Shown here piece by piece: positions 5,839-20,310 of a DNA stretch of 64,000 nucleotides. The DNA lies in the NCBI RefSeq assembly GCF_003569045.1, contig NZ_BFCB01000003.1, forward strand, positions 2,046,001 to 2,110,000. The letters are read 5' to 3'. The DNA is from Aggregatilinea lenta (GTDB lineage Bacteria; Chloroflexota; Anaerolineae; Aggregatilineales; Aggregatilineaceae). The position numbers and the translations under genes were made by a program. The notes beneath the pieces are model-generated. The model was not told the DNA's origin and did not search any database. It saw only the letters and a program-made list of their open reading frames with translations. The number at the start of each line of letters is the position of its first letter. Position 1 is the first letter of the stretch.

Positions 5839-6141
5839 TTATATCCATCCGAGTTGTTGTTTTGCTTCAAGCGACATCATCATTGGGTCCCAGGCGGGCT
5901 GCCAGATTAATTGAACATCAACACTGGCTGCCCCGGTGAGTTGTTCAACTGCAAACGTTGCCTCATCCACCAAATGCGAACCCAATGGGCAGGCGGGAGT
6001 CGTCATCGTCATCGTGATCAGGACATGGTCATCCAGCACCTGCGCTTCATACACCAGCCCCAGGTCAACGATATTAATCCCCAGTTCAGGATCGATCACT
6101 TGTTTTAGGGCTGCGATCACATCATCATAGTTTAGCGTCAT
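5839..6141 (-). CDS. DUF59/MIP18 metal-sulfur cluster biosynthesis protein
   Basis: The product (100 residues) carries the DUF59 core: VIDPELGINIVDLGLVYEA, then ITMTMTTPACPLGSHLVDEA, where the cysteine is the conserved Fe-S-carrier candidate. The usual C-terminal WDPMMMSLEAKQQLG is present. An ATG five codons upstream (6156) is possible, but GGAG nine bases before ATG 6141 favours the shorter form. Proteins of this family (SufT/PaaD-like) help mature Fe-S or other metal centres; here it probably serves the nirK/ferredoxin operon. Confidence 0.88.
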   Translation of the reverse strand: MTLNYDDVIAALKQVIDPELGINIVDLGLVYEAQVLDDHVLITMTMTTPACPLGSHLVDEATFAVEQLTGAASVDVQLIWQPAWDPMMMSLEAKQQLGWI

Positions 6142-6202
6142 CCTCACGGTCTCCATTTCTGTACGGCAGAAACAGCCGCTCCCGCCGTATTTTCGCCGCG
6201 TT

Positions 6203-7615
6203 TTAGTGACCCGAACCAGCGGTCAGTTGTCCATCAAAAATCGTTGGGTCGGGGTCGCCATCAACCAGCAGATACCCCACTAACCCGCGCTCCAGGCGGC
6301 TTAGCGCGTGGTCCACCAGGATGAAACGCCCCGGCACATCCAGCGTGACCTCAACTATCGTCGCACCACCCGGCGGCACGAGCGTCGTCTGCACATCCGT
6401 CAGCGGCGGACTGGTGAGCGATGCCCGGTCGTACACACGATCCATGATCTCGCCAATAACGTGGAACGACGAGGTGAAGTTCGGCCCACCGACGCCAAAG
6501 TAGAGGCGCACGGTTTCACCCACGTTGGCACGCAGCGCGTTGTCATCTGTGGTCAAACCACCTGCCGCGCCATTGAACACGAAGTATTCGGGCGCTTCAG
6601 CCAGCATTTTGGCATGATCGAAGTGAACGTAACCCTGCGTGCCAAAGGGTTCCTCGGTATAAATTTCGCCGTGCATGACATAAAATTCGCGGTCAACCGG
6701 GGCCAAACCCGCTTCCGGCTCGACCAGGATCATGCCGTACATGCCATTGGCGATATGGTGCGCCACGCTGGGCGTCGCGCAGTGATACACATACAGGCCA
6801 GGATTCAACGCTTTGAACGAGAACACAGTCTCATCGCCAGGATTCAGATTGCTGTAGACCGCCCCGCCACCAGGACCGGTCGCTGCATGAAAATCTACCG
6901 AATGCGGGAATTGACTTGTTGTGTCGTTGCGGAAATGCACCTCAACAGTATCACCGACACGCACGCGCAGCATGGGGCCAGGCACCGTGCCGTTAAACGT
7001 GAAATACGTCATAGACGTGTTATCCGCCAACTGACCGACAACTTCCTCGGCGACCAAATCCACCTGGACGGTTTGCGGCTCGCGTTCGCCCACCGGTGCG
7101 GGCCCATTGGCCGGGTGTTGCACAATGTTGGCACCGGTCACAGTTGGGGCAGATGGTTGGCCGACGACAAGCTTGCCCCACATCCCAGCCTGCCGGTGGC
7201 CCGGAACGGAACAGTAATACACGAATTCGCCGACCTGATCGGCAGTAAACGTAATGCTGTCTTGTTCATCTCGCCCGGAAAACTGGTCGGATTGGGCGTT
7301 GAATTCGTCAATAATCACGTCGTGCAGCATCCTGTCAGCGTTAATCAAGGTGATCTTGACCACATCACCAGGGTTCGCGGTCAGGGTGGGGTTGATTTGA
7401 CCATCAATATCACCACCAACACCGACAAACTCCAGTTGGCCCGTATCGCCACCGGTGAGCAAGGTGTATTCAACGGTCACGTTCGCCGACTTGTCATCAA
7501 AAATAGGTCCGGGATCGGGAGTTTCTGCTAGCGATAATCCCACTGTCAAAGTGATTATCACTCAGCTAGCAACAATCAAAGTGAGTGTTAGCGTTAATAT
7601 GGATTTGTGTGTCAT
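6203..7615 (-). CDS. nirK: Copper nitrite reductase with N-terminal cupredoxin; in-frame TGA in signal peptide
   Basis: Periplasmic enzyme reducing nitrite to nitric oxide. An N-terminal plastocyanin-like domain has complete type-1 copper ligands (LHDV histidine, YYCSVPGH cysteine and histidine, GMWG methionine). Two NirK cupredoxin domains follow: HSVDFHAA holds the catalytic Asp and a type-2 His, YHCATPSVAHHIANGMYG holds type-1 ligands, and SSFHVIGE and VDHALSR supply further histidines. The natural start overlaps the ferredoxin stop at 7615 (TGATG), giving a signal sequence interrupted by TGA at 7562-7564 (codon 18). The frame then continues as GTG at 7561. A functional enzyme needs readthrough, reinitiation at that GTG, or a sequencing correction. 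Confidence 0.85.
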
Positions 7616-7860
7616 CAATATCTCTCGCCTTTCGAGTCTGGATGGTCCTGCGAAAAAATAATCTGGTAGGGCAGCCCAATTGCATTTGTAGGGCAAACAT
7701 CCTCACAAATTGCGCAATAGGTGCAGGTTTGAGGGCGCACAACGACGGCTTTTCCGCCAATTTCACCTAACGCACCCGTGGGACACAGGACGATACAATC
7801 GCCGCAACCGGTACAGCGCACGTTGTCGATCTGGGGGGTCCATTGTTGCTGGATAGTCAT
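7615..7860 (-). CDS. 2[4Fe-4S] ferredoxin
   Basis: The 81-residue protein has two CxxCxxCxxxCP clusters, CTGCGDCIVLCP and CTYCAICEDVCP, the bacterial 8Fe ferredoxin pattern. It is the first gene of the leftward operon, preceded by tandem FNR-type boxes, and its stop overlaps the nirK start (TGATG), indicating translational coupling. It is probably an electron carrier for the nitrite/NO pathway or for metal-centre assembly; the partner is not evident. Confidence 0.92.
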   Translation of the reverse strand: MTIQQQWTPQIDNVRCTGCGDCIVLCPTGALGEIGGKAVVVRPQTCTYCAICEDVCPTNAIGLPYQIIFSQDHPDSKGERY

Positions 7861-7918
7861 GGGGCAACCCTTCTACTTTCAATTGACCGAAGCATAAACC
7901 ATTTCACATACGGTCACA

Positions 7919-7932
7919 TTGATGGGCGTCAA
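7919..7932 (-). promoter_or_regulatory. FNR/DNR-type operator, distal box
   Basis: TTGATGGGCGTCAA, one mismatch from the palindrome TTGAT-N4-ATCAA, centred about 66 bases upstream of the ferredoxin start. It is paired with the perfect box at 7938-7951, five bases away. Confidence 0.7.
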
Positions 7933-7937
7933 TCGAA

Positions 7938-7951
7938 TTGATCTGGATCAA
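7938..7951 (-). promoter_or_regulatory. FNR/DNR-type operator, perfect palindrome
   Basis: TTGATCTGGATCAA is an exact TTGAT-N4-ATCAA site. With the box at 7919 it lies between the regulator gene and the ferredoxin-nirK operon, so the adjacent Crp/Fnr protein probably activates this operon under low oxygen or nitrogen oxides. Confidence 0.8.
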
Positions 7952-7991
7952 GTAGAGGGGTAAAACAGCAAGAAGAATCGGAGGCGGCCTT

Positions 7992-8675
7992 TTACCGAAC
8001 GGCCATCGTCCGCAATAGTTCAGCGTTGGTAATCATGATCTTGTGGCGGTCGAAGCGGATAACCCCTGTATCCTGGAGCTTAGCGAGCACCCGGCTGATC
8101 GTTTCAGGTGTCGTCGCCAGGTGCGCCGCAATGGCAGCTCGCGTCACACCCGGACCACTCAGCGATGGATTCTCGGCCTGTGCTAATAAGAACCGAGCCA
8201 GTCGGACAATCACCGGGTATAGGGTCAGGTCTTCGATCTGGTGACCCAGAGCACGAATACGCGCCCCCATCATTTTCAGCGCCGCGTGCGCCATGACAGG
8301 ATAGCGATCCAGGGTGCGCTCCATCATCTCAGTTGGCAGCAGCCACGCTGACACAGGACTCATGGCAATCGCATTGGCAGGCGTAGGACCACCATCCAGT
8401 GCTGCAATATCATTGAATGAATCACCGGGGCCAAGCAAGTGGAGAATATACTCATTACCGGCCAAACTCAGCTTGGTGATTTTGATATTGCCATCCTCGA
8501 TGATCCACAAACCACGCGATTCGTCGCCTTCGAAAAAGATCGCTTCGTCCGGGGAAAATGTGAGATGAATAGCCTCACGCGCCAGACCAGCAAGTTCACC
8601 AGGAACTAACACACTGAAATACGGTATTTCCGCTAAGTACTCGTTTAAGGGCGTGGCAGATTCAGGAGTTTTCAT
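7992..8675 (-). CDS. Crp/Fnr-family regulator (DNR/NnrR-like)
   Basis: The 227-residue protein has an N-terminal cyclic-nucleotide-binding-type beta barrel (about residues 15-130: FFEGDESRGLWIIEDGNIKI) and a C-terminal HTH_Crp. The recognition helix TTPETISRVLAKL keeps the E--SR residues that read TTGA half-sites. There is no N-terminal cysteine cluster, so it is not a classical [4Fe-4S] FNR; a heme/NO-sensing DNR or NnrR type fits better. It lies just upstream of the ferredoxin-nirK operon, with two TTGAT-N4-ATCAA-type boxes between, and is the likely direct regulator. Confidence 0.9.
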   Translation of the reverse strand: MKTPESATPLNEYLAEIPYFSVLVPGELAGLAREAIHLTFSPDEAIFFEGDESRGLWIIEDGNIKITKLSLAGNEYILHLLGPGDSFNDIAALDGGPTPANAIAMSPVSAWLLPTEMMERTLDRYPVMAHAALKMMGARIRALGHQIEDLTLYPVIVRLARFLLAQAENPSLSGPGVTRAAIAAHLATTPETISRVLAKLQDTGVIRFDRHKIMITNAELLRTMAVR

Positions 8676-8921: not shown

Positions 8922-9572
8922 CTAACCGGTCGTATCGGGGATAAGGTGGAAATTCGCACGATTGGCGTTGACACCGCGCACTGGCTCGAACCGGTCCCAG
9001 TATGCCACGTAATCTTTGGTGACTGTGACTCCGACAAACATCGAGGCAGGAGCGCCAACGGCAAGACGGCTGCTCACCGTAAGCACACCAGAGCCAGCCG
9101 GGTTTCCGTCTGCATCCGCATAGGCGATGCGCATCACGGCCAGACCAGACCGCGCATCTGTGCGCTCAGCGATGGTGTCTCCGATGACAGGCGGGATGGT
9201 GCCCGGCGCTTCCACAAAGCTGATGAGATCCGTCACCGTGTACGTTCCCTCTCCCGTAGGCCGCAACCCATGTTCTGGGTAGGTCGTCCACGTTCCGCCG
9301 CCAGTTACCGCAGTGGGGTCGTCGGTTTGAAACGTTCCGGAACCGGTGAGCATGATGATCGTGCCATCCTGTGCGTAGGCGTAGGCGACACCGCCCTCCC
9401 CAGACGCGAAGGGCTCCATAAAAGGCTCGTCGTCAACGAACTGGAAAATATCCCAACGGTAGGTGGCGGCGCCGTCTTGAGCGCTCGCGCTTTTGATTCC
9501 AAACGTGACGCCGCCGAGTAACCCGACGAGCACACCGATCACCACGAAACTTCTTATTGTCCGCATAGTCAT
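8922..9572 (-). CDS. Secreted protein of unknown function
   Basis: A 216-residue protein with a clear Sec signal peptide (TIRSFVVIGVLVGLLGGVTF, cleavage near SASA-QD). The mature part is rich in G, T, D and V, as in extracellular beta-sheet proteins, and contains PTAVTGGGTWTTY and TGEGTYTVTDLISFVEAPG. These resemble short repeated beta-hairpin segments of secreted bacterial proteins of unknown role. It has its own terminator downstream and appears monocistronic. Confidence 0.7.
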   Translation of the reverse strand: MTMRTIRSFVVIGVLVGLLGGVTFGIKSASAQDGAATYRWDIFQFVDDEPFMEPFASGEGGVAYAYAQDGTIIMLTGSGTFQTDDPTAVTGGGTWTTYPEHGLRPTGEGTYTVTDLISFVEAPGTIPPVIGDTIAERTDARSGLAVMRIAYADADGNPAGSGVLTVSSRLAVGAPASMFVGVTVTKDYVAYWDRFEPVRGVNANRANFHLIPDTTG

Positions 9573-10078
9573 TGCTCCTTGTGCTTACGATCGAATACGC
9601 ATATCGGACAATCGATTGAGGTCAGTATCAACTCCAAAACGCACCACTGGCGCTACTGACCAGCAGATTGCATTCTGATGTTGAGGCGGTGTCGAAGGTC
9701 TCTGCCGCCGGCCTAATTGCATCTGCTGTCCGATTTCTCTCTGACCATACCATCCATTGGTTTGCGCGTCTCCGACTTAAGTCGAATTTGCTCATACCGC
9801 TAAAAAACCTCATTGTGGATGAAGTTTTTTTCTGCCCGATTCAGAATAGATGTGCATAGTAGACAGCACGCCTCTATCAATCAATCTCCAAGGATTGCCC
9901 ACACCCCGCAATCACGACCTTTCCAGCCTCTCCGGTTTGTATATCAGAAACGAATTCTTCCCACATAGTGTCATGGAACTTTTTATTTGTTGCTGCGATA
10001 GTTGACAGATATCCGTTGGAGATATAATATTCAAGTATTCTCTTTATAAAAGGAATATCGTGCATAGGAACACTATCC
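9573..10078. other. Intergenic region with divergent promoters
   Basis: About 500 bases separate two divergent genes. The right part (roughly 9960-10078) is AT-rich and probably carries the promoter of the ArsR-rhodanese gene. I see no confident RNA gene or repeat. A small minus-strand frame (9877-10137) overlaps the next gene's start and is not convincing. Confidence 0.4.
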
Positions 10079-10744
10079 ATGGACATCAAATACCAGCAGA
10101 AGAGCCGACTGTACGACCTCTTCGCCCAGATCGGCAAGGCACTGTCCAGTCCTGGCAGGCTGGAACTTCTGGACTTGCTAACTCAGGCCCCGCGCACCGT
10201 CGAAGAACTCGCGGTCGAAACGGGCATGAGCATCTCCAACACCTCGCAGCATTTACAGCGGCTCAAGCAGGCACACCTGGTTGCAACCGAGCGGGAAGGA
10301 ACCTTCATCCGCTACCGGCTGGCTGCTTCTGCCGTGGGTGAACTCTGGCACACGCTGCGCCAGGTGGCCGAACAGCAGCTTAGCGATGTTGACCTGGCCC
10401 TGGACGACTATCGCGAGCGACGTCACGAGTTTGAGCGCATCAGTGCCCAGGACTTACGGCTGCGCCTTCAAAGCAGAGACGTGGTCCTGCTTGATGCGCG
10501 TCCTACGGTGGAGTACGAAACCGGCCATCTGCCCGGCGCGCTGTCCGTCCCGGTCGAAACTGTAGAACAGTTGCTGAAATCACTTCCCGACGACAAGACC
10601 ATTGTGGCTTACTGTCGCGGCCCTTACTGCGTGCTGGCCGATGAAGTCCTGGCAATGTTCGCCCAGGCTGGCAGACAGGTTGCACGGCTGGAAGAAGGCG
10701 TTACCGAGTGGCAGATGGCAGGTTATGAAGTCTCTCGTGCATAA
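10079..10744 (+). CDS. ArsR-family regulator fused to a rhodanese domain
   Basis: Residues 10-100 form an ArsR winged helix (SSPGRLELLDLLTQAPRTVE, then MSISNTSQHLQRLKQAHLV). Residues 125-221 form a rhodanese domain: VVLLDARPTVEYETGHLPGA, the catalytic cysteine C179 in AYCRGPYC, and the closing GVTEWQMAGYEV. C184 is a second cysteine in the active loop. ArsR-rhodanese fusions are known regulators in which sulfane sulfur on the rhodanese cysteine is thought to modulate DNA binding. It begins a sulfur cluster, 26 bases before the DsrE-like gene. Confidence 0.92.
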   Translation: MDIKYQQKSRLYDLFAQIGKALSSPGRLELLDLLTQAPRTVEELAVETGMSISNTSQHLQRLKQAHLVATEREGTFIRYRLAASAVGELWHTLRQVAEQQLSDVDLALDDYRERRHEFERISAQDLRLRLQSRDVVLLDARPTVEYETGHLPGALSVPVETVEQLLKSLPDDKTIVAYCRGPYCVLADEVLAMFAQAGRQVARLEEGVTEWQMAGYEVSRA

Positions 10745-10770
10745 TCACTGAAGGAGAAAGTACACATCCA

Positions 10771-11136
10771 ATGGATAGTCCAACCGCACAAAATATCCTG
10801 ATTATTATCAACGATGGACCCTACGGCAATGAGCGTGCTTATAATGCGCTGCGCCTGGGGATGAATCTGGCGAAACGGGCCGAGGCAACTGTGCGTGTAT
10901 TTCTGGTAGGCGATGGCGTGGCATGCGCCAAACGCAACCAGACCACGCCCCAGGGATACTATAATGTCGAGCGGATGCTCAAACCGATCCTCCAGCGCGG
11001 CCAGGTCGCGGTTTGAAACAGCTGCTGTGAGGCTCGCGGGTTCGAGCCAGAGGTGTTAATCGAAGGCGTTGTGATTGGGTCGATGGATCTCCAGGGGGAG
11101 TGGACCCTGGCTGCCGACAAAGTGCTGGCTTTCTAA
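10771..11136 (+). CDS. DsrE-family sulfur-relay protein, candidate selenoprotein (TGA = Sec82)
   Basis: The frame encodes 81 residues typical of DsrE-like proteins (NDGPYGNERAYNALRLGMNL, VFLVGDGVACAK, GYYNVERMLK), reaches TGA at 11014-11016, then continues as NSCCEARGF, VLIEGV, GSMDLQGEWTLAADKVLAF and a TAA at 11134. Homologs have CGTCMDARG there, so TGA occupies the first cysteine and gives a U-x-x-C redox motif, the classic selenocysteine context. A stem-loop begins 14 bases after TGA. Conventional gene calling would truncate the protein at 81 residues. Neighbours (rhodanese regulator, SQR-like flavoprotein) support a sulfur-transfer role. The alternative is a recent nonsense mutation. Confidence 0.8.
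11031..11048 (+). promoter_or_regulatory. Candidate bacterial SECIS stem-loop
   Basis: GGCTCG (11031-11036) pairs with CGAGCC (11043-11048) around a six-base loop CGGGTT. The loop guanines lie about 22-24 bases after the TGA, within the 16-37-base window of bacterial SECIS elements, which need a G in the apical loop. Confidence 0.6.
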
Positions 11137-11204
11137 GTCTCTCCACATCATAGACCAGGGCGGCAGGCGTGTGTCTGCCGCCTCGTCGTACTCAGGAGAA
11201 AACC

Positions 11205-12440
11205 ATGAGCAGTAAAACGATCCTCATTCTCGGAGGTGGCGTCGGAGGGCTGGTCACGGCCAATGAACTGCGCCATCACCTACCGCTTGAACACCGGATT
11301 GTGGTCATCGACCGGCAGACCCAGCACATCCACAACCCCTCCCTGTTGTGGCTGATGGTGGGTTGGCGCGACGCGTCGAACCTCCAAGCCGATCTGCGCC
11401 AACTGGCGCGCCGCAATGTCGAGTTTGTGCAAGCCGACATCCAGGCTATCGAGCCGGACAACCATCGTGTGCAAACTTCCGCAGGGGAATTTGCTGGCGA
11501 TTACCTGGTGATCTCCCTGGGCGCGCAGCCTGCTCCTGAACTGACGCCAGGGTTTGTCGAAGCAGCGCACACACCGTACACGCTGGAGGGCGCGAGCCAA
11601 CTGCGTCAGGCTCTGGTCGAATTCAAGGGCGGGAAGTTGGTTGTCGCTGTCACCGGCCTGCCGTACCGCTGCCCGGCTGCGCCCTACGAGACAGCATTGA
11701 TATTGCACGCGTACCTGAAAAAGCGTGGCCTGCGGGATCAGACTGACATGGTGATGATCTCGCCGGAAGCCATGCCGATGGGCACTGCCGGTCCCGTCAT
11801 GGGGCAAGCGATCCAGAGAATGCTGGCCGAACGCGATATTCCCTATCGCCCATTGACCCCCTCCCAAGCCATCGACGCTGACAGCCATGAGCTGATTCTG
11901 AACTCCGGCGAACATGTTCCGTTTGATCTGCTGGTGGGAGTTCCTGCGCATCGCAGCCCGCAGGTTGTGCGCGAGTCGGGATTGACCAATGAAGCCGGGT
12001 GGATTCCGGTTGACGCAACTTCCCTGGCAACACGCGCTGAAGGTGTTTATGCGCTGGGCGATGTGACCGTCATCCCCCTGCCGGGACGCTTCCAGCCGGA
12101 CGCAGCGCTGACACTCCCCAAAGCAGGCGTTTTCGCCCACCGGCAGGCGGAGGTGGTTGCGTTCAACCTGGCAATGGAGATATCCGGTCGGACAGAACGC
12201 CGCGCTTTTGACGGTCTGGGCGGCTGTTTTGTCGAACTGGGCGATGGTCGGGCGGGTTACGGCGCGGGCAATTTCTATCATCCCCAAGCGCCAGCCGTGA
12301 CGCTGCGCAACCCTACCCGGTATTGGCACTGGGCGAAAGTACTGGTCGAAAAGTACTGGCTGTGGCGCTGGTTCTCATCCCGGTTCGCCAATGCGCAGTC
12401 CATCGGTGACCGGCTATTGTTTGGGCGGACGTCACGTTAA
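11205..12440 (+). CDS. SQR-like FAD/NAD(P) oxidoreductase
   Basis: The 411-residue flavoprotein begins KTILILGGGVGGLVTANEL, a Rossmann FAD site. It has GVYALGDVTVIPLPGRFQPD, the second FAD motif that precedes the quinone site in sulfide:quinone oxidoreductases. VTGLPYRCPAAPYETA holds the conserved cysteine of the SQR superfamily. ATG 11205 follows AGGAG; an earlier in-frame start at 11169 lacks a ribosome binding site. With the rhodanese regulator and DsrE-like protein it forms a sulfide/sulfane-sulfur cluster. Typical SQRs have three key cysteines; I see only one clear candidate, so the acceptor and substrate are uncertain. Confidence 0.85.
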   Translation: MSSKTILILGGGVGGLVTANELRHHLPLEHRIVVIDRQTQHIHNPSLLWLMVGWRDASNLQADLRQLARRNVEFVQADIQAIEPDNHRVQTSAGEFAGDYLVISLGAQPAPELTPGFVEAAHTPYTLEGASQLRQALVEFKGGKLVVAVTGLPYRCPAAPYETALILHAYLKKRGLRDQTDMVMISPEAMPMGTAGPVMGQAIQRMLAERDIPYRPLTPSQAIDADSHELILNSGEHVPFDLLVGVPAHRSPQVVRESGLTNEAGWIPVDATSLATRAEGVYALGDVTVIPLPGRFQPDAALTLPKAGVFAHRQAEVVAFNLAMEISGRTERRAFDGLGGCFVELGDGRAGYGAGNFYHPQAPAVTLRNPTRYWHWAKVLVEKYWLWRWFSSRFANAQSIGDRLLFGRTSR

Positions 12441-12463
12441 TTCTTCAGAAGGCAACACAACGG

Positions 12464-12693
12464 GTGCCAAAAACAGGGTCCGTGGATAACTTTACGGCTG
12501 ATTATGACGCCTGGTTCGAAGATTTCCGCGCGGTCTACGAATCGGAACTGGAAGCGATCCGGACGCTACTGCCGACAGGCGAATCGGAGATCGAAATCGG
12601 GGTCAGCACGGGAAGGTTCGCTGCACCGTTAGGCGTCAGGTTTGGCATCGAACCCTCGCGGACGATGGCACTCATTGCCTGTTCCGTGTACAT
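12464..12693 (+). pseudogene. Methyltransferase 5' fragment truncated by an IS element
   Basis: From a GTG start the frame encodes the beginning of a class I SAM methyltransferase: FTADYDAWFEDFRAVYESE, then EIEIGVSTGRFAAPLGVRFG, motif I with the GxxTGxF glycine loop. It runs into the left end of the IS at 12694, and the last residues of the open frame come from the element. No continuation appears on the far side of the IS, so the 3' part was lost rather than only interrupted. Confidence 0.75.
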
Positions 12694-12758
12694 TGACCTG
12701 CCCCCCATAAACTGATCCAGTTTGTATGTTAGGATTGGACAATCAAGGAGGCAGAGAA

Positions 12759-13034
12759 ATGCCACGCAAGAGGTATTCACCCGACGAGATCATCCACAAG
12801 TTGCGCGAGGCTGAAGTCTTGCTCAGCCAAGGGCTGACGGTGCAAGAAGCGGTGCGACAGCTCGGCATCGCGGAACAAACCTACTACCGCTGGCGCAAAG
12901 AGTACGGCGGGCTGGACAAGAGCCAAGCGACGCGGCTGAAAGAACTGGAGCGCGAGAACCTGAGGCTGAAGAAGTTGGTGGCGGACCTCTCGCTGGACAA
13001 GTCGATTTTGGAGGAAGCGCTGTCAAAAAAGTAA
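12759..13034 (+). CDS. IS3-family transposase OrfA
   Basis: A 91-residue HTH_Tnp_1 protein: PRKRYSPDEIIHKLREAEVL, GLTVQEAVRQLGIAEQTYYRW, then a leucine-zipper segment (LKELERENLRLKKLVADLSL). The ATG at 12759 has an AAGGAGG ribosome binding site. The sequence AAAAAAG at 13025-13031, just before the stop, is the usual -1 frameshift site producing the OrfAB transposase. Confidence 0.92.
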   Translation: MPRKRYSPDEIIHKLREAEVLLSQGLTVQEAVRQLGIAEQTYYRWRKEYGGLDKSQATRLKELERENLRLKKLVADLSLDKSILEEALSKK

Positions 13035-13057
13035 TCAGCCCGGCCAGGCGACGCGAG

Positions 13058-13894
13058 ATGGTGGCGCATGTTCAGCAGCAGCTGGACATTTCTGAGCGGC
13101 GCGCCTGCCGGGTATTGAGACAGCCCCGTGCCACCCAGCGTTACGCCAGCCAACGGAGTGATGAGGACCGGCGGCTGACGACGCGAATTGTGGAACTTGC
13201 CAGTGCGTACGGTCGCTACGGCTACCGGCGCATCACCGCCTTGCTACGGGACGAAGGCTGGCGTGCGAATCACAAGCGCGTCGAGCGGATCTGGCGTCAA
13301 GAAGGCTTGAAAGTGCCACCCAAACAGCCCAAACGAGGACGGTTGTGGCTGAATGACGGATCCTGTGTCCGTCTGCGGCCCGCCTATCCCAATCATGTGT
13401 GGAGCTACGATTTCATGCAGGACCACACGCATAACGGCGTGCCGTTTCGGATCTTGAACATCATCGACGAGTACACGCGCGAATGCCTGGTCGCGCGCGT
13501 GGAACGATGCTTATCTCATCGTGAGGTGCTGGAAGAACTGACCTGGCTGTTCTGTACGCGGGGGCTACCCGCCTACATCCGTTCCGACAACGGCCCGGAA
13601 TTCACTGCCCAGCGGGTCCGCGACTGGTTGTCTCGCCTGAACGTCGGACCGCTCTTCATCGAGAAGGGCAGCCCCTGGGAGAACGGCTACATCGAGAGCT
13701 TCAATGGCAAGATGCGGGATGAACTACTCAACGGCGAGATCTTCTACTCCCTGAAAGAAGCCCAGGTGCTGATTGAAGACTGGAGGTGCCACTACAACAC
13801 ACGACGACCCCACAGCTCGCTTGACTACCGCCCACCGGCTCCGGGGGCTATACTGGTTCCACCACTCGCCACAAACGCCTGGAGTCTAACTTAA
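13058..13894 (+). CDS. IS3-family transposase OrfB (DDE integrase core)
   Basis: The 278-residue product has an HTH_21 segment (YGRYGYRRITALLRDEGW) and the rve catalytic core: first Asp in WSYDFMQD, second in IRSDNGPEFTAQ, Glu in SPWENGYIESFNGKMRDEL. It ends in the usual YNTRRPHSSLDYRPPAP. The frame opens upstream into the -1 frame of orfA, so the active protein is probably the OrfAB fusion. Catalytic residues are intact, so the element may be active. Confidence 0.93.
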   Translation: MVAHVQQQLDISERRACRVLRQPRATQRYASQRSDEDRRLTTRIVELASAYGRYGYRRITALLRDEGWRANHKRVERIWRQEGLKVPPKQPKRGRLWLNDGSCVRLRPAYPNHVWSYDFMQDHTHNGVPFRILNIIDEYTRECLVARVERCLSHREVLEELTWLFCTRGLPAYIRSDNGPEFTAQRVRDWLSRLNVGPLFIEKGSPWENGYIESFNGKMRDELLNGEIFYSLKEAQVLIEDWRCHYNTRRPHSSLDYRPPAPGAILVPPLATNAWSLT

Positions 13895-14146: not shown

Positions 14147-15733
14147 TCAGCGTTGTAGGCTGTGTTTCTGAAAAATCCAGCTGACCAGTCTTTTCACAGA
14201 ATCGTAGAGAAGTGATGATGCTTCAAAGGGAGACGATGCTAGTTGTCGGCAGGAATGTTGGCAAGAGTTTAAGTAGTAACAGACACCGTCCCCGACCTGA
14301 CGATAGCCACATATTGGAACTCCATCTGTTGTTTCTACCAGAACGATCGAATCTGGACGTGCTTCCGCTATTTCATAGGAGCTCGTGTATTCGAATTGAC
14401 CAGAAAAAATCTTCTGTGCAATTTCGTGTTCCGTAGGTACACATGAGAGTTTCACATCCTCTATGTACTTAATATATTTAAAGGGCAAACACATGGAAAA
14501 AAGCTGCGATCTGGTTTCCCAACCCACCCACGGCGTTGCCAGCAGTATGCCGCCGGATCGGAGAAAATACTCCAGGGTCGAATATAGCCTACCGCTACCA
14601 ACAATTCCCATGTGCTCGCCGCGTACGAGTACAACTAGATCATACACGCCGAGAATTTCCTCTAGTCTTAAGTCAAATGATTCAAGCGCAATATTCGTGA
14701 TTGGGTCTAATTCAGTGCTCACCAAAAAGTAACCGGCATTTTCGACAGTAAACCCCAACTGATGTGAGAAATCCGTTCCATCTGTCAGCATTAGAGCTGC
14801 AGGGATTTGCATAGCAGATCTTAATGCGAATGACTTAACAAGCCAGTTGTCGCTATTCGCGAGAAGGACTTCAGTCTGTTGAGTTGAGATTGTAGAACCT
14901 AAATAGAGCAATGTATCGATAGCAGTACTCAGAACCAATGTGTCTTGTTCATCTACGAGACGAGTAATAACCAACCCGGACGCATATTCCAATCGTAGAC
15001 TTCGGATCAGGCGAAGTGCACCTGAGCGAATACTTACATTTGTATGCCTGAGAGCAAGTTCTAGGATTTCCAAAAGGCTGGCATGATCAATGCCGGAAAG
15101 CCAGTTTGTTAAGTCCGGAATAATCTCATTAAACCCTTCCTGTTTTGAGGCCAGAACCACACCATACAGAATGTACTCTGACAAATCAGAACTCACTCCT
15201 GCTATCGAAATGCCTGGAAGAACGAAACGAAGTGCATTTACGTCTAACAGGTCGCGTTCATGTGCCCCGAACATTAACCAATCCTCATAATTCCTCCTTA
15301 CAACATCGTGCGCTCGCTGGCGGGCGACAGCATCTTCCTGAACTCCAACTCCTAAACTCGAAAGTACTCGCTCTAGAGCAGTTTCAAAGGGTAATCCGAC
15401 AAAATCGATATATTGGAATCGATTCAATTGAAAGTGTAGGTTCGCCGGACGATACAAGATGGGAATAACTATTTTCTCCTGGTCAAGAAAATACTGCCAT
15501 TCATCTTCTACGTTCGATGATGCCATTGAGTTTGGAGAAACGATCAATAACATAGTCTGGCAACTATCGAGTCCGGCTTGAACGGCTTTGCTCCATTTCA
15601 CTCCAGGTACAATATCGCGTGTGTCCAGCCACGCTTCAACGCCATATTCCAGAAGAGAAGTGGCTATCTTGTTCGCGAATTCCATATCATGGCGACTGTA
15701 GCTAATGAACACTTTGGGCATGTACTCGCTCAC
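14147..15733 (-). CDS. TIR-domain protein with HEAT-like repeats and a C-terminal glutaminase-like domain
   Basis: Residues 6-125 form a bacterial TIR domain: KVFISYSRHDMEFANKIATS, AWLDTRDIVPGVKW, LLIVSPNSMASSNVEDEWQY, with E78 in the position of the NADase glutamate. Residues about 170-310 are helical repeats (LLEILELALRHTNVSIRSGA). Residues about 330-528 look like a class I glutamine-amidotransferase/ThuA fold (LEEILGVYDLVVLVRGEH, LRSGGILLATPWVGW) without an obvious catalytic cysteine. TIR effectors cleave NAD+ in anti-phage defence. It lies beside a NACHT-CHAT gene on the same strand, 300 bases apart. The C-terminal assignment is tentative. Confidence 0.8.
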   Translation of the reverse strand: MSEYMPKVFISYSRHDMEFANKIATSLLEYGVEAWLDTRDIVPGVKWSKAVQAGLDSCQTMLLIVSPNSMASSNVEDEWQYFLDQEKIVIPILYRPANLHFQLNRFQYIDFVGLPFETALERVLSSLGVGVQEDAVARQRAHDVVRRNYEDWLMFGAHERDLLDVNALRFVLPGISIAGVSSDLSEYILYGVVLASKQEGFNEIIPDLTNWLSGIDHASLLEILELALRHTNVSIRSGALRLIRSLRLEYASGLVITRLVDEQDTLVLSTAIDTLLYLGSTISTQQTEVLLANSDNWLVKSFALRSAMQIPAALMLTDGTDFSHQLGFTVENAGYFLVSTELDPITNIALESFDLRLEEILGVYDLVVLVRGEHMGIVGSGRLYSTLEYFLRSGGILLATPWVGWETRSQLFSMCLPFKYIKYIEDVKLSCVPTEHEIAQKIFSGQFEYTSSYEIAEARPDSIVLVETTDGVPICGYRQVGDGVCYYLNSCQHSCRQLASSPFEASSLLYDSVKRLVSWIFQKHSLQR

Positions 15734-16032
15734 TTATTAACTGTGATTATCTTGATAATTCTCTTTGACAGCGCGATCCTGCATTTTCCGGCATTCACTT
15801 TCCTTTTGCTGCGTGCGGAAAGCCCCAAACGTTCAGTCAAATCCTCTCCTATGTGTCTCCAAACAAATGCGCCCGGGAATGGCAGAGGCGAGCCAACCGC
15901 GCTTCCCAGTTGGCTAAGCAACGGCCATAATCAAGTGCTGCATGCTGCCCAAGCGAGACACTTTTTCAATGCTAAGGCTGTAGCGCCATAACGATCGTCC
16001 GCTATGCCGCAAGTGCCTTCCTAAACAACAGT
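15734..16032. other. Intergenic gap between TIR and NACHT-CHAT genes
   Basis: 299 bases between two leftward genes. I see no coding potential, strong hairpin or repeat; it presumably holds the promoter of the TIR gene. Confidence 0.4.
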
Positions 16033-19000
16033 TCACGAATGATCATGTTGCCCGTGCGATCCCAGTACCGAAGGTCTTACTAATACCATTCTACTAGAAT
16101 TGGCACTCTCAGCCTCGAATAATCTAGGAACGTCCACTTCCGAAATACCTTCAAGCATGATGGCCGTCCTCGCTTGCTCAAACGCCGATCGAACCGAGCG
16201 ACCAAACCCAATCGACGAATAGAACTGTGCAGCAAAGATACGGGCTGCGTTATCGCCTATGGACTCGCTCATACCTATGGCAACAGGTACATGTTGGACA
16301 GCTTTGAGCGCCTGAGAAGCAGAATCACATGAATTGAAGATAACGACCTGGAGCCTGTCGGCTGTTACAGTTAGAAGTTCCACGATGGCTTCAGTAGGAA
16401 TCACTATTGTCCCGGCAGAAGAGTCAAGAAATGCTAGTCCGCCCTCATTTCCATGCCCACTGAACTGCACAATGTGAGGTTGGTGCTCATTCAATGCCTG
16501 AATCAGATCGTCTGTTCTGACTGCCCAGCGTGCAATTAGCTCAACGGAATCTCGGTACTCCGAGGCCCTAATTTTCTCTGTGATTGCACGATGTTCTTCA
16601 TCAAGCGCTAGCGGGGATTGATCATGTGGCTGAGCAGCAAACAGCAGCACCTTTATTCTTTCGGGCAATTTTGAAGCATCAGCTGCCATCGCGAAAATCT
16701 CCCCAGGTGTTTTTGGTGCCCATCGGAGCCGTTGTACACTTTCGCGGACTTCTTGTAGTGCTCGCTGGACCCGATAGATAGAGGGATAGACTTCTGCAAT
16801 ACGCTCAATACCTTTCTGGGCTTCTGGGGTTCCTCTTTGAGCCAAATTTTCAAGGAATTTGTCTCGCCAAGTGGTAATTTCCATACGATCAGTTATTGTG
16901 TGGACCCCAAGAACGTAGGGATCCTCTTCAAATGGATAATTCTCGGCAACCCACAAATAAAGATTGGTCAGTTCGGCCTCTGGTAAACGAAAACTAATTG
17001 CGACTGCCTGCCGATCATCAAAACTGCTGGCTACTTTTTCAACGACACTCTTGCCAAATTCAGTGTTCTTCTGCATAAGTGGCCACACTCTGGACCACCA
17101 GGACACGTTGTCTGGATAGAGAATCAACGCTCGTGTAGTCTGGATTGCGCGCTCACGATCTGGTCCATCATCAGGCAAAGGCCTAATACACGAAAGTGCA
17201 AAATCGATAGCCCCTATTACGTTGCGTTGGAGAAGGCGTAACATAATGACGTTAAGGGTGTCAGGCGCTAACTCCGGATCGTGTAGTTTATCCACCAATG
17301 CTTGATCTATTCGGTCATCCCAGCATTCAGTGAACTTTTCAAGTAGTTCATAGATATAGATTACTTCATGCCCTTGATCGTCTTTAAGCCCAATCAAATC
17401 GACTAGAAAACTAACCATTATTTCAGCAGCGTGCCGATAAGCCGCCTTCACTAATTGGTGATGCAATTCGGAATTCTGCTCATATCCCGGCGATGAAACG
17501 TGGGATCGATAAGCCATAATGATCGATGCCCACTTTTGCCATACTTCCTGCTCCAAAATCGGTTCATCCGGTAATAACTTGTGAACTAACATTAGTGCAC
17601 GGTATCCAGCTATCGCAGGCCAGTGTATCAAACCCAGGTAAAACCATTTTTCATTTTCTGGGTTCTGGTCCTTCAAGTATTGGATACCCGCCTGTAATAT
17701 CCTTGTTCGTGTATTCGCGTCAGCCTCCTGCCAGCCAGGCATGGCAGTAATGTCCGGCTCATAAATGAAATGATTGGTACCATCCGCTTCAAAGATTAGA
17801 TTGTATGATAGTCGCCCCCACTCACCGGAGTCTTGTGTCTCACATATTTCAAGTTGTTCGGCGATCAGAGTTGCTGGAAGTGGATCTGGCGGTTGTGGTC
17901 TGGCTTCTTCGCGCCGCGCCTCGATTTCTTTCATTCGCTGGTGATGTTCCCTACTTGATCGAGCCTCCGCAGAGTCTAGATTGGTGACGAAAAAGGGACG
18001 AAAATGTTCTTCCAGTACTTTGTTTTTTTGCATTGCATCAAAGATGATCATCAAATGGTTTGCGTCCCATCGATAGAACGCTATCTGAATTAATTCGAGA
18101 AATACTGCTTGCAAGTCCCCGGTCTCTACTTCCTCAAATCTGCCTATCAACCATTCCAGGTCCTCGGGAATTACCAATGGCGTGACATGATCTGCCAAGA
18201 AGTGCAGATGGTCTGCGTAACCCAGCAAAGAGGGAATGGCCGCCTCAAGGATCTGATGTCTCTTGCTATGATTAGTCACAAGTTCGGACTTAAACTCAGC
18301 TATCTTGGGTTTTCTATCATCGTCTACCAGATAGCTCTCCTGCCCGGCAATAGGGTGAAACTCTCTCAACCGAGCCAGGGCGACATTCACAAATCCGTCC
18401 AACACCTCGGGGGAATCTAAGTATTGCCAAGCGATCAGAACTATCTCGTCAATGGCATTTTGCAGCGCATAATCACGTTCTAGTGGGCTACCTAGCGCCC
18501 GATCAACCTTCGCTGTAGCCCACCGCAATGCGTGAGGTAAGTCAGCAGGACCAAGACGTTCGAAGGTGTCACGATGCAAAAACATGCGATATGCACCAAA
18601 AAAGTTCGACTGCTTGGGTGGAGTTAGAACTGCAAAAAGCTCCTCCGCTGCAAGGTGATCGGGCCATAACGCCAGCAGCGATGCGCCCTTTAGTTCATCG
18701 TCGTCATCGTCGATGTCGCCATATATCAAGGGCTTCAGCTGCTGTTTTGCTGCAATGTCGCCAATTCTCCAGATCGCGTAGGCAGCGTTTTTTCGTACCA
18801 AGTGGGGAGTCTCTACATCCAGAGCAGTTCGTACTAGTTCGTCCTGAAGTTCTCTGACTTCACAGGCTTCTGCAATATCTATCGCTACATATCGGGCGTG
18901 ACGGTTGCCTTCTCGATTCACGATATATGGTCGAAGTTGTGCCGCAAGGTCAGGATGTAACCATCGACGATACTGAGTTCGTCGATCAAACCCAAGGTCT

Positions 19001-20310
19001 AGCAGATTCCCATTTTCGTAGAGATGCAACAGTGCTGATACTAAACGAGGGCGATTAGTACTGTCCGCTAGAATAATGTCACCTTGCAGCAACGCCTGGG
19101 GATCACGCTGCAGAACCTCGGCAAGAATGTCGCTATTCATGCTAGATAGCCACGCAGTCAGAGCACGCAATTGTGGTACTATGGCACCGTCTTGAAATAC
19201 GAGCTCATGCATTTGCGGCACGGTCAAGTAGTGGTTGAGATATCGAGCTGCAAGGAATTCAGCGAAGGTTTGATGCGCCCATCCGAGACGTTTTTCGCCT
19301 CGCGAAGCAAATAAACCAGTTGACAATGCCTCTTCGATCAAATCTCTTTTGAGGTTTGACTGAGGACTTTGAAGTTGATCAATCGGAATAATGCTCACAG
19401 GCATGCCATCCAGTGAACCGTAAATCCAGACGGCATTCTGGTTAGTAAGGACCATGATAGCCGCGATTTGACTGGCGGCGTCCAATCGAGAAGCTGCGGT
19501 ATACTGCCCAGTCAATTTCCGCTCTATACGAACGGGGTTCTGCTCCTCGCACAACCGTAAACAGTACCGCTCATACAGATCAATTTGGGTAGCTGGGAGT
19601 TTTCCCTGTTGTTCTTGAAATTCCCGTATAAGCGACTTCAACGTAAGAGGCTTCACGGCTAGAGGCTCCAAACCAAGAAGCTCGATTTCCTCCCAGAATG
19701 CTTGTGAGTCCACCCTCTCGATTTCCGTAGCCAGTAGAGTGTCTGTATACTGCAGCGGGGCAAGTTCGTAGATCTCGGGAAGTGTGCCATTCCAGAGATT
19801 GGCCAACTCAGTTGTAAGCGTGTCGGGCCAATCAGCTGTGCGGCATGTAATCCGGAGAAACAGTCGATGCAAGGTAGATTGAGGAAGCTTACCTAGATAA
19901 CGCGTAAGCCAATAGCCAATATCAATTGGGCGTAGAGTCCCCTCGTCGAGTCCGTCAAGGAACAGATAGAAGTTATGGGAACCGTGCTGCCAGTCAGCAA
20001 AACGCGGATCTTCAAAAATCTCTTTTAGACTCTCTGAAGGGCTATACCGAGCTATTCTGTCGAGAACTTTTTCGTCAGGTCCAGGAGGTACAAAGGCGTC
20101 GTATGCTCGTTCCAGCTCGGAAGACTTCCCTATGCCGGGCTCGCCTAAAAGCACCAAGCATTGAACCGAATTGAGGTCCTCAAGTGCTGTCCGCACATCA
20201 TTTTCTGGAAAGCTTAAAAGCAACGATTCCAGACGAACGTCCGTCGAACCTGTGCTACGCATGCCTCGCTTGTGCCACCTACGCTGCCAGTCGTATTGTC
20301 GCTCGTTCAC
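16033..20310 (-). CDS. NACHT NTPase with helical repeats and C-terminal CHAT caspase-like protease
   Basis: A 1425-residue STAND protein. The NACHT domain has Walker A LLGEPGIGKSS (G56-S63) and Walker B FLDGLDEG (117-124). The middle, about residues 400-1180, is helical repeats of HEAT/ARM type, probably the ligand sensor. The C-terminal ~220 residues form a CHAT protease with catalytic His1286 in FSGHGNEGG and Cys1328 in FNSCDSAS. Such NLR-like proteins sense phage components, oligomerise and activate the protease. No gasdermin or other obvious protease substrate is adjacent; the nearest candidate partner is the TIR protein downstream. Confidence 0.9.
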   Translation of the reverse strand: MNERQYDWQRRWHKRGMRSTGSTDVRLESLLLSFPENDVRTALEDLNSVQCLVLLGEPGIGKSSELERAYDAFVPPGPDEKVLDRIARYSPSESLKEIFEDPRFADWQHGSHNFYLFLDGLDEGTLRPIDIGYWLTRYLGKLPQSTLHRLFLRITCRTADWPDTLTTELANLWNGTLPEIYELAPLQYTDTLLATEIERVDSQAFWEEIELLGLEPLAVKPLTLKSLIREFQEQQGKLPATQIDLYERYCLRLCEEQNPVRIERKLTGQYTAASRLDAASQIAAIMVLTNQNAVWIYGSLDGMPVSIIPIDQLQSPQSNLKRDLIEEALSTGLFASRGEKRLGWAHQTFAEFLAARYLNHYLTVPQMHELVFQDGAIVPQLRALTAWLSSMNSDILAEVLQRDPQALLQGDIILADSTNRPRLVSALLHLYENGNLLDLGFDRRTQYRRWLHPDLAAQLRPYIVNREGNRHARYVAIDIAEACEVRELQDELVRTALDVETPHLVRKNAAYAIWRIGDIAAKQQLKPLIYGDIDDDDDELKGASLLALWPDHLAAEELFAVLTPPKQSNFFGAYRMFLHRDTFERLGPADLPHALRWATAKVDRALGSPLERDYALQNAIDEIVLIAWQYLDSPEVLDGFVNVALARLREFHPIAGQESYLVDDDRKPKIAEFKSELVTNHSKRHQILEAAIPSLLGYADHLHFLADHVTPLVIPEDLEWLIGRFEEVETGDLQAVFLELIQIAFYRWDANHLMIIFDAMQKNKVLEEHFRPFFVTNLDSAEARSSREHHQRMKEIEARREEARPQPPDPLPATLIAEQLEICETQDSGEWGRLSYNLIFEADGTNHFIYEPDITAMPGWQEADANTRTRILQAGIQYLKDQNPENEKWFYLGLIHWPAIAGYRALMLVHKLLPDEPILEQEVWQKWASIIMAYRSHVSSPGYEQNSELHHQLVKAAYRHAAEIMVSFLVDLIGLKDDQGHEVIYIYELLEKFTECWDDRIDQALVDKLHDPELAPDTLNVIMLRLLQRNVIGAIDFALSCIRPLPDDGPDRERAIQTTRALILYPDNVSWWSRVWPLMQKNTEFGKSVVEKVASSFDDRQAVAISFRLPEAELTNLYLWVAENYPFEEDPYVLGVHTITDRMEITTWRDKFLENLAQRGTPEAQKGIERIAEVYPSIYRVQRALQEVRESVQRLRWAPKTPGEIFAMAADASKLPERIKVLLFAAQPHDQSPLALDEEHRAITEKIRASEYRDSVELIARWAVRTDDLIQALNEHQPHIVQFSGHGNEGGLAFLDSSAGTIVIPTEAIVELLTVTADRLQVVIFNSCDSASQALKAVQHVPVAIGMSESIGDNAARIFAAQFYSSIGFGRSVRSAFEQARTAIMLEGISEVDVPRLFEAESANSSRMVLVRPSVLGSHGQHDHS

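Follow-up and report, generated by a model that had tools for sequence, protein, structure and literature searches.

A predicted YchN-type DsrE-family selenoprotein in Aggregatilinea lenta and its SECIS-like hairpin

A dsrE gene of Aggregatilinea lenta, located at positions 10771..11136 (+ strand) of the window (the whole stretch of DNA that was analyzed, 64,000 nucleotides), almost certainly encodes a selenoprotein, as judged from comparative sequence evidence. Readthrough of an in-frame TGA at 11014..11016 (+), interpreted as selenocysteine (Sec) at residue 82, gives a YchN-type DsrE-family protein of 121 residues, an assignment based on matches to PF02635 and to solved structure 1jx7 and on a structure model. 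Under the standard code, the protein would end just before its active-site residue. The full explanation that we favor, with moderate confidence, is a YchN-type selenoprotein whose Sec82 is inserted under the direction of a hairpin and which takes part in sulfane-sulfur metabolism.

The frame from 10771 to 11136 contains this single TGA and closes with a final stop, and its standard-code translation has only 81 residues, the truncation that the preliminary description of this DNA had predicted. The Pfam DsrE score is 41.2 bits for the 81-residue part and 69.8 bits for the read-through protein (PF02635, cut-off 22.7), with the latter match covering profile positions 2-116 of 116. This increase and the match to the last profile position indicate that the sequence beyond the TGA is genuinely DsrE, and they bear out the earlier claim that the frame continues in family-consistent fashion to a proper stop. 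No NCBIfam 20.0 model matches the protein at or above its own cut-off. The TGA replaces precisely the first cysteine of a C-x-x-C motif, as had also been proposed, to give U-x-x-C, with the partner codon, for Cys85, at 11023..11025 (+). In all 47 aligned homologues, Cys or Sec occupies both positions of the motif, and positions 82 (with C written for U), 85, Ala88, and Arg89 are invariant.

Relatives were collected by a contig scan that found 151 loci, of which the best 80, from named genomes, were used. Aligning the 121-residue translation to these homologues, a check that the preliminary description had suggested, places the TGA at a cysteine codon: in the best 80 of the 151 loci, the codon aligned to residue 82 is TGA in 24 and TGC or TGT in 56, and no other codon occurs. 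The 24 TGA loci come from 22 genomes, and the frame is matched across the TGA in them. Altogether, Sec forms are seen in 26 genomes, including that of the window. Because the TGA recurs in other genomes, a sequencing error at 11014-11016 appears very unlikely. That the codon is an ordinary stop, marking a truncated gene, a pseudogene, or such an error, is an extremely improbable reading overall. TGA does function as a stop in this host, where it ends 10 of the 31 window ORFs of at least 200 residues (in a greedy, non-overlapping set), but the same codon recurs with its frame matched in 24 of the best 80 loci, the downstream part matches the DsrE family to its end, and the stem of the hairpin described below is kept.

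The genome (6.2 Mb in five contigs, 98.38% complete and 4.66% contaminated) contains the Sec machinery that the preliminary description had proposed to look for and whose complete lack it had named as a refutation, with selC, selB, selA, and selD all above their respective cut-offs. The tRNA-Sec (selC) scores 68.8 bits, is called as Sec, and has a TCA anticodon; two further above-cut-off matches of this search are tRNA-Ser. The selB (332 bits) and selA (540 bits) genes lie with selC inside 6 kb of a contig that differs from the window's contig, which, given the contamination rating, counts somewhat against the case. The window's own contig, however, carries selD (351 bits), which itself has an in-frame TGA within the sequence SCAGUASK. 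This selD is at 91765-92697 of the contig, and the adjoining frame resembles cysteinyl-tRNA synthetase by eye. A change in the genetic code is ruled out by the use of TGA to end long ORFs in the window. When frames are joined across TGA throughout the window, 27 motif matches are obtained on the basis of pattern only, the DsrE one included. The homologous residue is Cys, so that translation might place cysteine or some other amino acid at this codon independently of Sec, through a reassigned code, a suppressor, or an allo-tRNA. This possibility is highly improbable given that TGA serves as a stop elsewhere in the window, that the selA-selB-selC set and the TGA-containing selD are present, and that a hairpin accompanies the TGA forms.

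The bacterial SECIS-like hairpin is located at 11031..11048 (+). Its 6-bp stem begins 14 bases 3' of the TGA and closes the loop CGGGUU, which has a G at its second position, so the stem-loop with a G-bearing loop noted in the preliminary description is indeed present. The distance from TGA to loop is 20 nt and the predicted energy is -8.7 kcal/mol, and the hairpin is within the limits for bacterial SECIS elements quoted in PMC13188914. Folding energy by itself is weak evidence: the 18-nt hairpin alone is more stable than most shuffles (z -2.38, 3/200 as good), and the 50-nt stretch from the TGA onward is no more stable than its shuffled versions (z -0.48, 62/200 as good). No Rfam match above the gathering score was found at 9500-12500. 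The weight of the argument rests on comparative evidence.

For this comparison, 28 distinct Sec sequences were set against 78 distinct Cys rows, the latter remaining from 85 rows after removal of identical and short ones. The 85 Cys rows included two motif matches due to chance, from sequences other than DsrE (the second match in each of L036 and L123), and these were left in. Loci L020 and L102, which represent the same contigs as L021 and L032, respectively, were removed before the hairpin comparison and tree construction. Outside the 28 are L139, a second Sec copy in genome G137, and seven distant Sec forms considered below. All six stem pairs can form in 23 of the 28 Sec sequences, and the other five have five pairs and are without the outermost one. 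In contrast, the numbers of Cys rows with 0, 1, 2, 3, 4, and 5 pairs are 7, 17, 34, 13, 6, and 1, and none has six (rank test p 1.2e-15, a value that ignores relatedness). In the alignment of the 28 Sec sequences, 97.0% of stem cells pair, versus 54.8% or 53.0% when the stem is slid by one base.

Covariation is also evident in the 28 Sec sequences. Cells changed on both sides number 16, compared with a shuffled mean of 6.0 (0/500 shuffles as high). Two other measures, namely the number of stem pairs changed on both sides (2; equaled or exceeded in 417/500 shuffles) and the number of additional pair types (3; 500/500), are not above shuffles, because three of the six stem pairs never vary. The column pair 21-32 covaries without exception, with C-G in 17 sequences and U-A in 11. 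It joins the third position of codon 88 (Ala) to the second position of codon 92, and consequently GCU goes with Glu92 and GCC with Gly92 in all 28 sequences. Each side of the pair changes five times on the best tree, with only one independent switch on well-supported branches, and 32 of the 78 Cys rows are able to pair at this site. The RNA element therefore seems to fix an amino acid of the protein, with the Ala codon GCU accompanied by Glu92 and GCC by Gly92.

The Sec forms also group together in phylogenetic trees, which have few columns for so many rows and only a midpoint root. In a tree of 114 rows, the 28 Sec forms make up one side of a branch with support of 100/95. When the Sec residue was excised together with the 14 residues that follow it, a tree of 111 rows gave the Sec clade support of 99/97, which rules out the clade being a product of SECIS-coding residues alone. 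The 111-row tree was made by removing one chance row and the two rows of distant Sec forms; the chance match in L036 had been removed from the 114-row tree for its length, and that in L123 was kept there and removed from the 111-row tree. The simplest reading of these trees is that the Sec forms have one origin.

Most members of the Sec clade occur in Chloroflexota. The search of the phylum covered 400 genomes and gave a match in 49 of them; close TGA forms are found in the window's own genome, in G035, G129, and G394, and twice in G137, which is apparently the genome of L032. One of 17 other genomes of the same family has a copy (G011, corresponding to the contig of L021). Sec forms from named genomes are labeled Chloroflexota, except for those in two Acidobacteriota MAGs (L043 and L049) and in one MAG called Firmicutes (L028 and L031). 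Relatives on plasmids (36 records) all have less than 60% identity, and two pattern matches in viruses were found, neither of which was confirmed. In three Pseudomonadota loci (L034, L036, and L039), two Cys-form DsrE genes are about 370 bases apart, and each pair includes one gene that ranks by identity with the nearest Cys relatives of the window protein within the best 80 of the 151 loci.

The distribution of selA agrees with Sec decoding. All 25 other genomes known to carry a Sec member of the clade were searched, along with 46 Cys genomes picked by hand down the lists. A selA gene above the cut-off is present in 24 of the 25 Sec genomes versus 21 of the 46 Cys genomes, and 25 of the latter are without selA (Fisher p 1.8e-5, with relatedness ignored). 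The one Sec genome in which selA was not found in this search (G435, the genome of L045 and L046) is a draft MAG with two Sec-SelD genes.

A second, distant group of Sec forms is present in another family of the phylum, f32, in which all seven matching genomes (G313, G320, G112, G224, G334, G096, and G299; loci L132-L138) carry a DsrE protein with an in-frame TGA. Its motif at the place of residue 82 is UKGC or URGC, followed by AEARG. A hairpin of the GAGGCCC/GGG type follows the TGA in six of the seven folds, and L136 folds otherwise. The L132 protein scores 45.4 bits with PF02635 and is 34% identical to the window protein. A selA gene is above the cut-off in six of the seven genomes.

In the window, the selenoprotein gene is preceded by a gene at 10079..10744 (+) that encodes an ArsR-type regulator fused to a rhodanese domain (PF01022 and PF00581; NF033788 at 75 bits, cut-off 55) and ends 26 nt upstream of dsrE. 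The fused protein is probably a sensor of sulfane sulfur. Ahead of the ArsR gene, an imperfect palindrome (10036..10057, 85% complementary) is a possible operator, a weak candidate that may be due to chance. Downstream, at 11205..12440 (+), is a gene for a flavoprotein resembling sulfide:quinone reductase (SQR; PF07992 and PF21706). Its best NCBIfam match, at 243.8 bits and so below the cut-off of 525, is NF049943, a model of the selenoprotein subtype of type III SQR. The lack of an in-frame TGA rules out the Sec form of this SQR that the match had led us to suspect.

Several other genes in the region can be mentioned. A pair of transposase genes with HTH_Tnp_1 and rve domains, presumably IS3-like, is located at 12726-13894, just downstream of the sulfur cluster (in the segment 12464-13894), and beside it is a short ORF that has no Pfam match and may, by eye, be a methyltransferase fragment. 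At 14147-20310 (-), a TIR-domain protein (14147-15733) adjoins a 1425-residue protein (16033-20310) whose CHAT domain is close to the end, and this pair is possibly related to defense. Upstream of the sulfur cluster, 5839-8675 (-) includes genes for a multicopper oxidase with cupredoxin matches, a 4Fe-4S ferredoxin, an Fe-S assembly protein, and a Crp-type regulator; by eye, the oxidase may be a nitrite reductase.

The ArsR-rhodanese/SQR setting had been thought notable for a DsrE selenoprotein, but it proves to be common in the family. The neighbors were compared within flanks of unequal length, from less than 0.5 kb to at least 5 kb. Of 28 Sec loci, eight have the fused ArsR-rhodanese gene nearby, 13 an ArsR gene of any kind, eight an SQR-like gene (broken in one case), and four both the fused gene and an SQR-like gene; for 79 Cys loci, the corresponding counts are 46, 49, 32, and 25. 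Other neighbors of Sec loci encode a histidine kinase, a P-type ATPase, a glycosyltransferase, a chromate transporter, a cupin, a DsbH-like thioredoxin, or a GGDEF-EAL protein. In L022 and L030, the adjoining gene encodes an MBL-fold protein, with a rhodanese domain in L022; the best NCBIfam match of these is GloB (hydroxyacylglutathione hydrolase) and the second is Blh (sulfur transferase/dioxygenase), all below cut-off. These varied neighbors indicate that the sulfur operon is not the sole setting and that several others occur. Because only a minority of Sec loci have SQR or ArsR genes and several are beside unrelated genes, a role in a sulfide operon may not hold for the whole Sec clade.

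The family placement is clear from sequence and predicted structure. A profile of 47 sequences matches four solved sequences at E 0.01, namely E. coli YchN (1jx7) at 115.9 bits and TusD, DsrE, and DsrF at 19 to 23 bits. The structure model (pLDDT 94.6, pTM 0.88) has 1jx7 as its best solved match (TM 0.88, 38% identity, full-length cover). In the model, residue 82 ends the strand 78-82, and Cys85 is within the helix 83-89. The DsrE label in the preliminary description is accordingly correct for the family (PF02635) and less apt for the subtype, since the closest solved relative is YchN and not DsrE or TusD. The TusD model TIGR03012 scores 31.3 bits, below its cut-off of 89.25, so the protein is not classed as a TusD/DsrE equivalog.

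The ArsR-rhodanese and SQR-like neighbors, together with the alignment of the TusD/DsrE cysteine with Sec82, lead us to think that the Sec82 protein probably has a role involving sulfane sulfur. The following mechanism is modeled on established knowledge of SQR, rhodanese, and sulfur transfer by the DsrE family, and on gene order. SelB and tRNA-Sec would decode UGA codon 82 as selenocysteine, directed by the hairpin at 11031-11048, and U-x-x-C would thereby replace the family's C-x-x-C, with Sec82 predicted at the end of a strand and Cys85 in the next helix. Sec82 might then act as the nucleophile that takes up sulfane sulfur, in the form of the persulfide or polysulfide that the neighboring SQR makes. 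Cys85 could resolve the selenenyl sulfide, with the sulfur then handed on or released as sulfide. A buildup of sulfane sulfur might act on the fused ArsR-rhodanese repressor to switch the operon on.

Alternately, the protein could be a general thiol-disulfide or peroxide oxidoreductase that is near sulfur genes by chance. The U-x-x-C at a strand-helix junction of the model and the Sec loci in which no sulfur gene was recognized nearby would fit such an activity. This reading is nonetheless doubtful, because ArsR-rhodanese and SQR-like neighbors recur with both Sec and Cys forms, and because the 16 solved chains that match at E <=0.001 are DsrE-like or unnamed small proteins plus one designed cage, with YchN, DsrEFH, and TusBCD as the best.

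The selenoprotein might instead serve selenium handling and not sulfur handling, for example as a source of reduced selenium for SelD. In two loci of MAG Prado095 (L045:960-2390, and L046 upstream of 3648), a TGA-containing selD, scoring 341.7 bits in L045, is directly upstream of the Sec dsrE. An SQR-like gene is about 2 kb beyond the cassette in L045; in L046 it adjoins the cassette, is broken by a stop codon (TAA or TAG), and lacks part of its frame. The window's SQR also matches TIGR03169 (Nterm_to_SelD), at 83.7 bits and thus below the cut-off of 310, and PMC5322559 links YedF, whose DsrE-like domain carries CGXC, to the use of selenium. We consider selenium handling unlikely, because among 30 Sec and 79 Cys loci, selD-like matches occur only at L045, at L046, and weakly at L055 (33%, 1.6e-8), the ArsR-rhodanese/SQR setting is common to the Cys forms, and 25 of the 46 Cys genomes are without selA. 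A specific form of the idea, that the Sec-DsrE/SQR pair carries zero-valent selenium to SelD besides or instead of sulfur, has as its main hint the cassettes of L045 and L046 and is distinctly unlikely; if it were true, a selenoprotein would help to feed selenoprotein synthesis.

The sulfane-sulfur reading can be related to proteins of established structure. E. coli YchN (1jx7), the closest solved relative by both sequence and fold, has the motif CKTC with Cys at both positions, whereas the window protein has U-x-x-C. DsrE and TusD (2hy5_A and 2d1p_A) share the fold, and their motif Cys, which carries sulfur, aligns with Sec82. In contrast to YchN, they score only about 23 bits, and the alignments shown have no Cys of theirs opposite Cys85. 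A protein that exists in both Sec and Cys versions in like operons offers a natural comparison.

As stated in the preliminary description, DsrE-like selenoproteins are known from metagenomic surveys, and they have been in print since 2005, beginning with the Sargasso Sea. The accessible sections of the published accounts describe two Sargasso sequences in 2005, one from D. vulgaris in 2006, and DsrE 1 and DsrE 2 in 2008, with reviews in 2022 and 2026, and place these proteins in D. vulgaris and marine metagenomes (PMC1088965, PMC1794560, PMC2398784, PMC9312934, PMC13188914). Three selenoprotein families, left unnamed, are counted for Chloroflexi in the relevant section of PMC1794560. Among the matches listed in the open-licence literature, none describes a DsrE selenoprotein that is YchN-type or comes from Chloroflexota. 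The published DsrE-like selenoprotein (PF02635, UxxC; for example, WP_014524487.1), has its Pfam family and U-x-x-C motif in common with the window protein and may or may not belong to the YchN-type clade. The window protein thus adds what the sequence data strongly support as a further example of the known DsrE-like U-x-x-C selenoproteins, and what the analysis adds is a defined YchN-type Sec clade, mostly of Chloroflexota, with its conserved SECIS and its settings, and a second group of DsrE-type Sec proteins.
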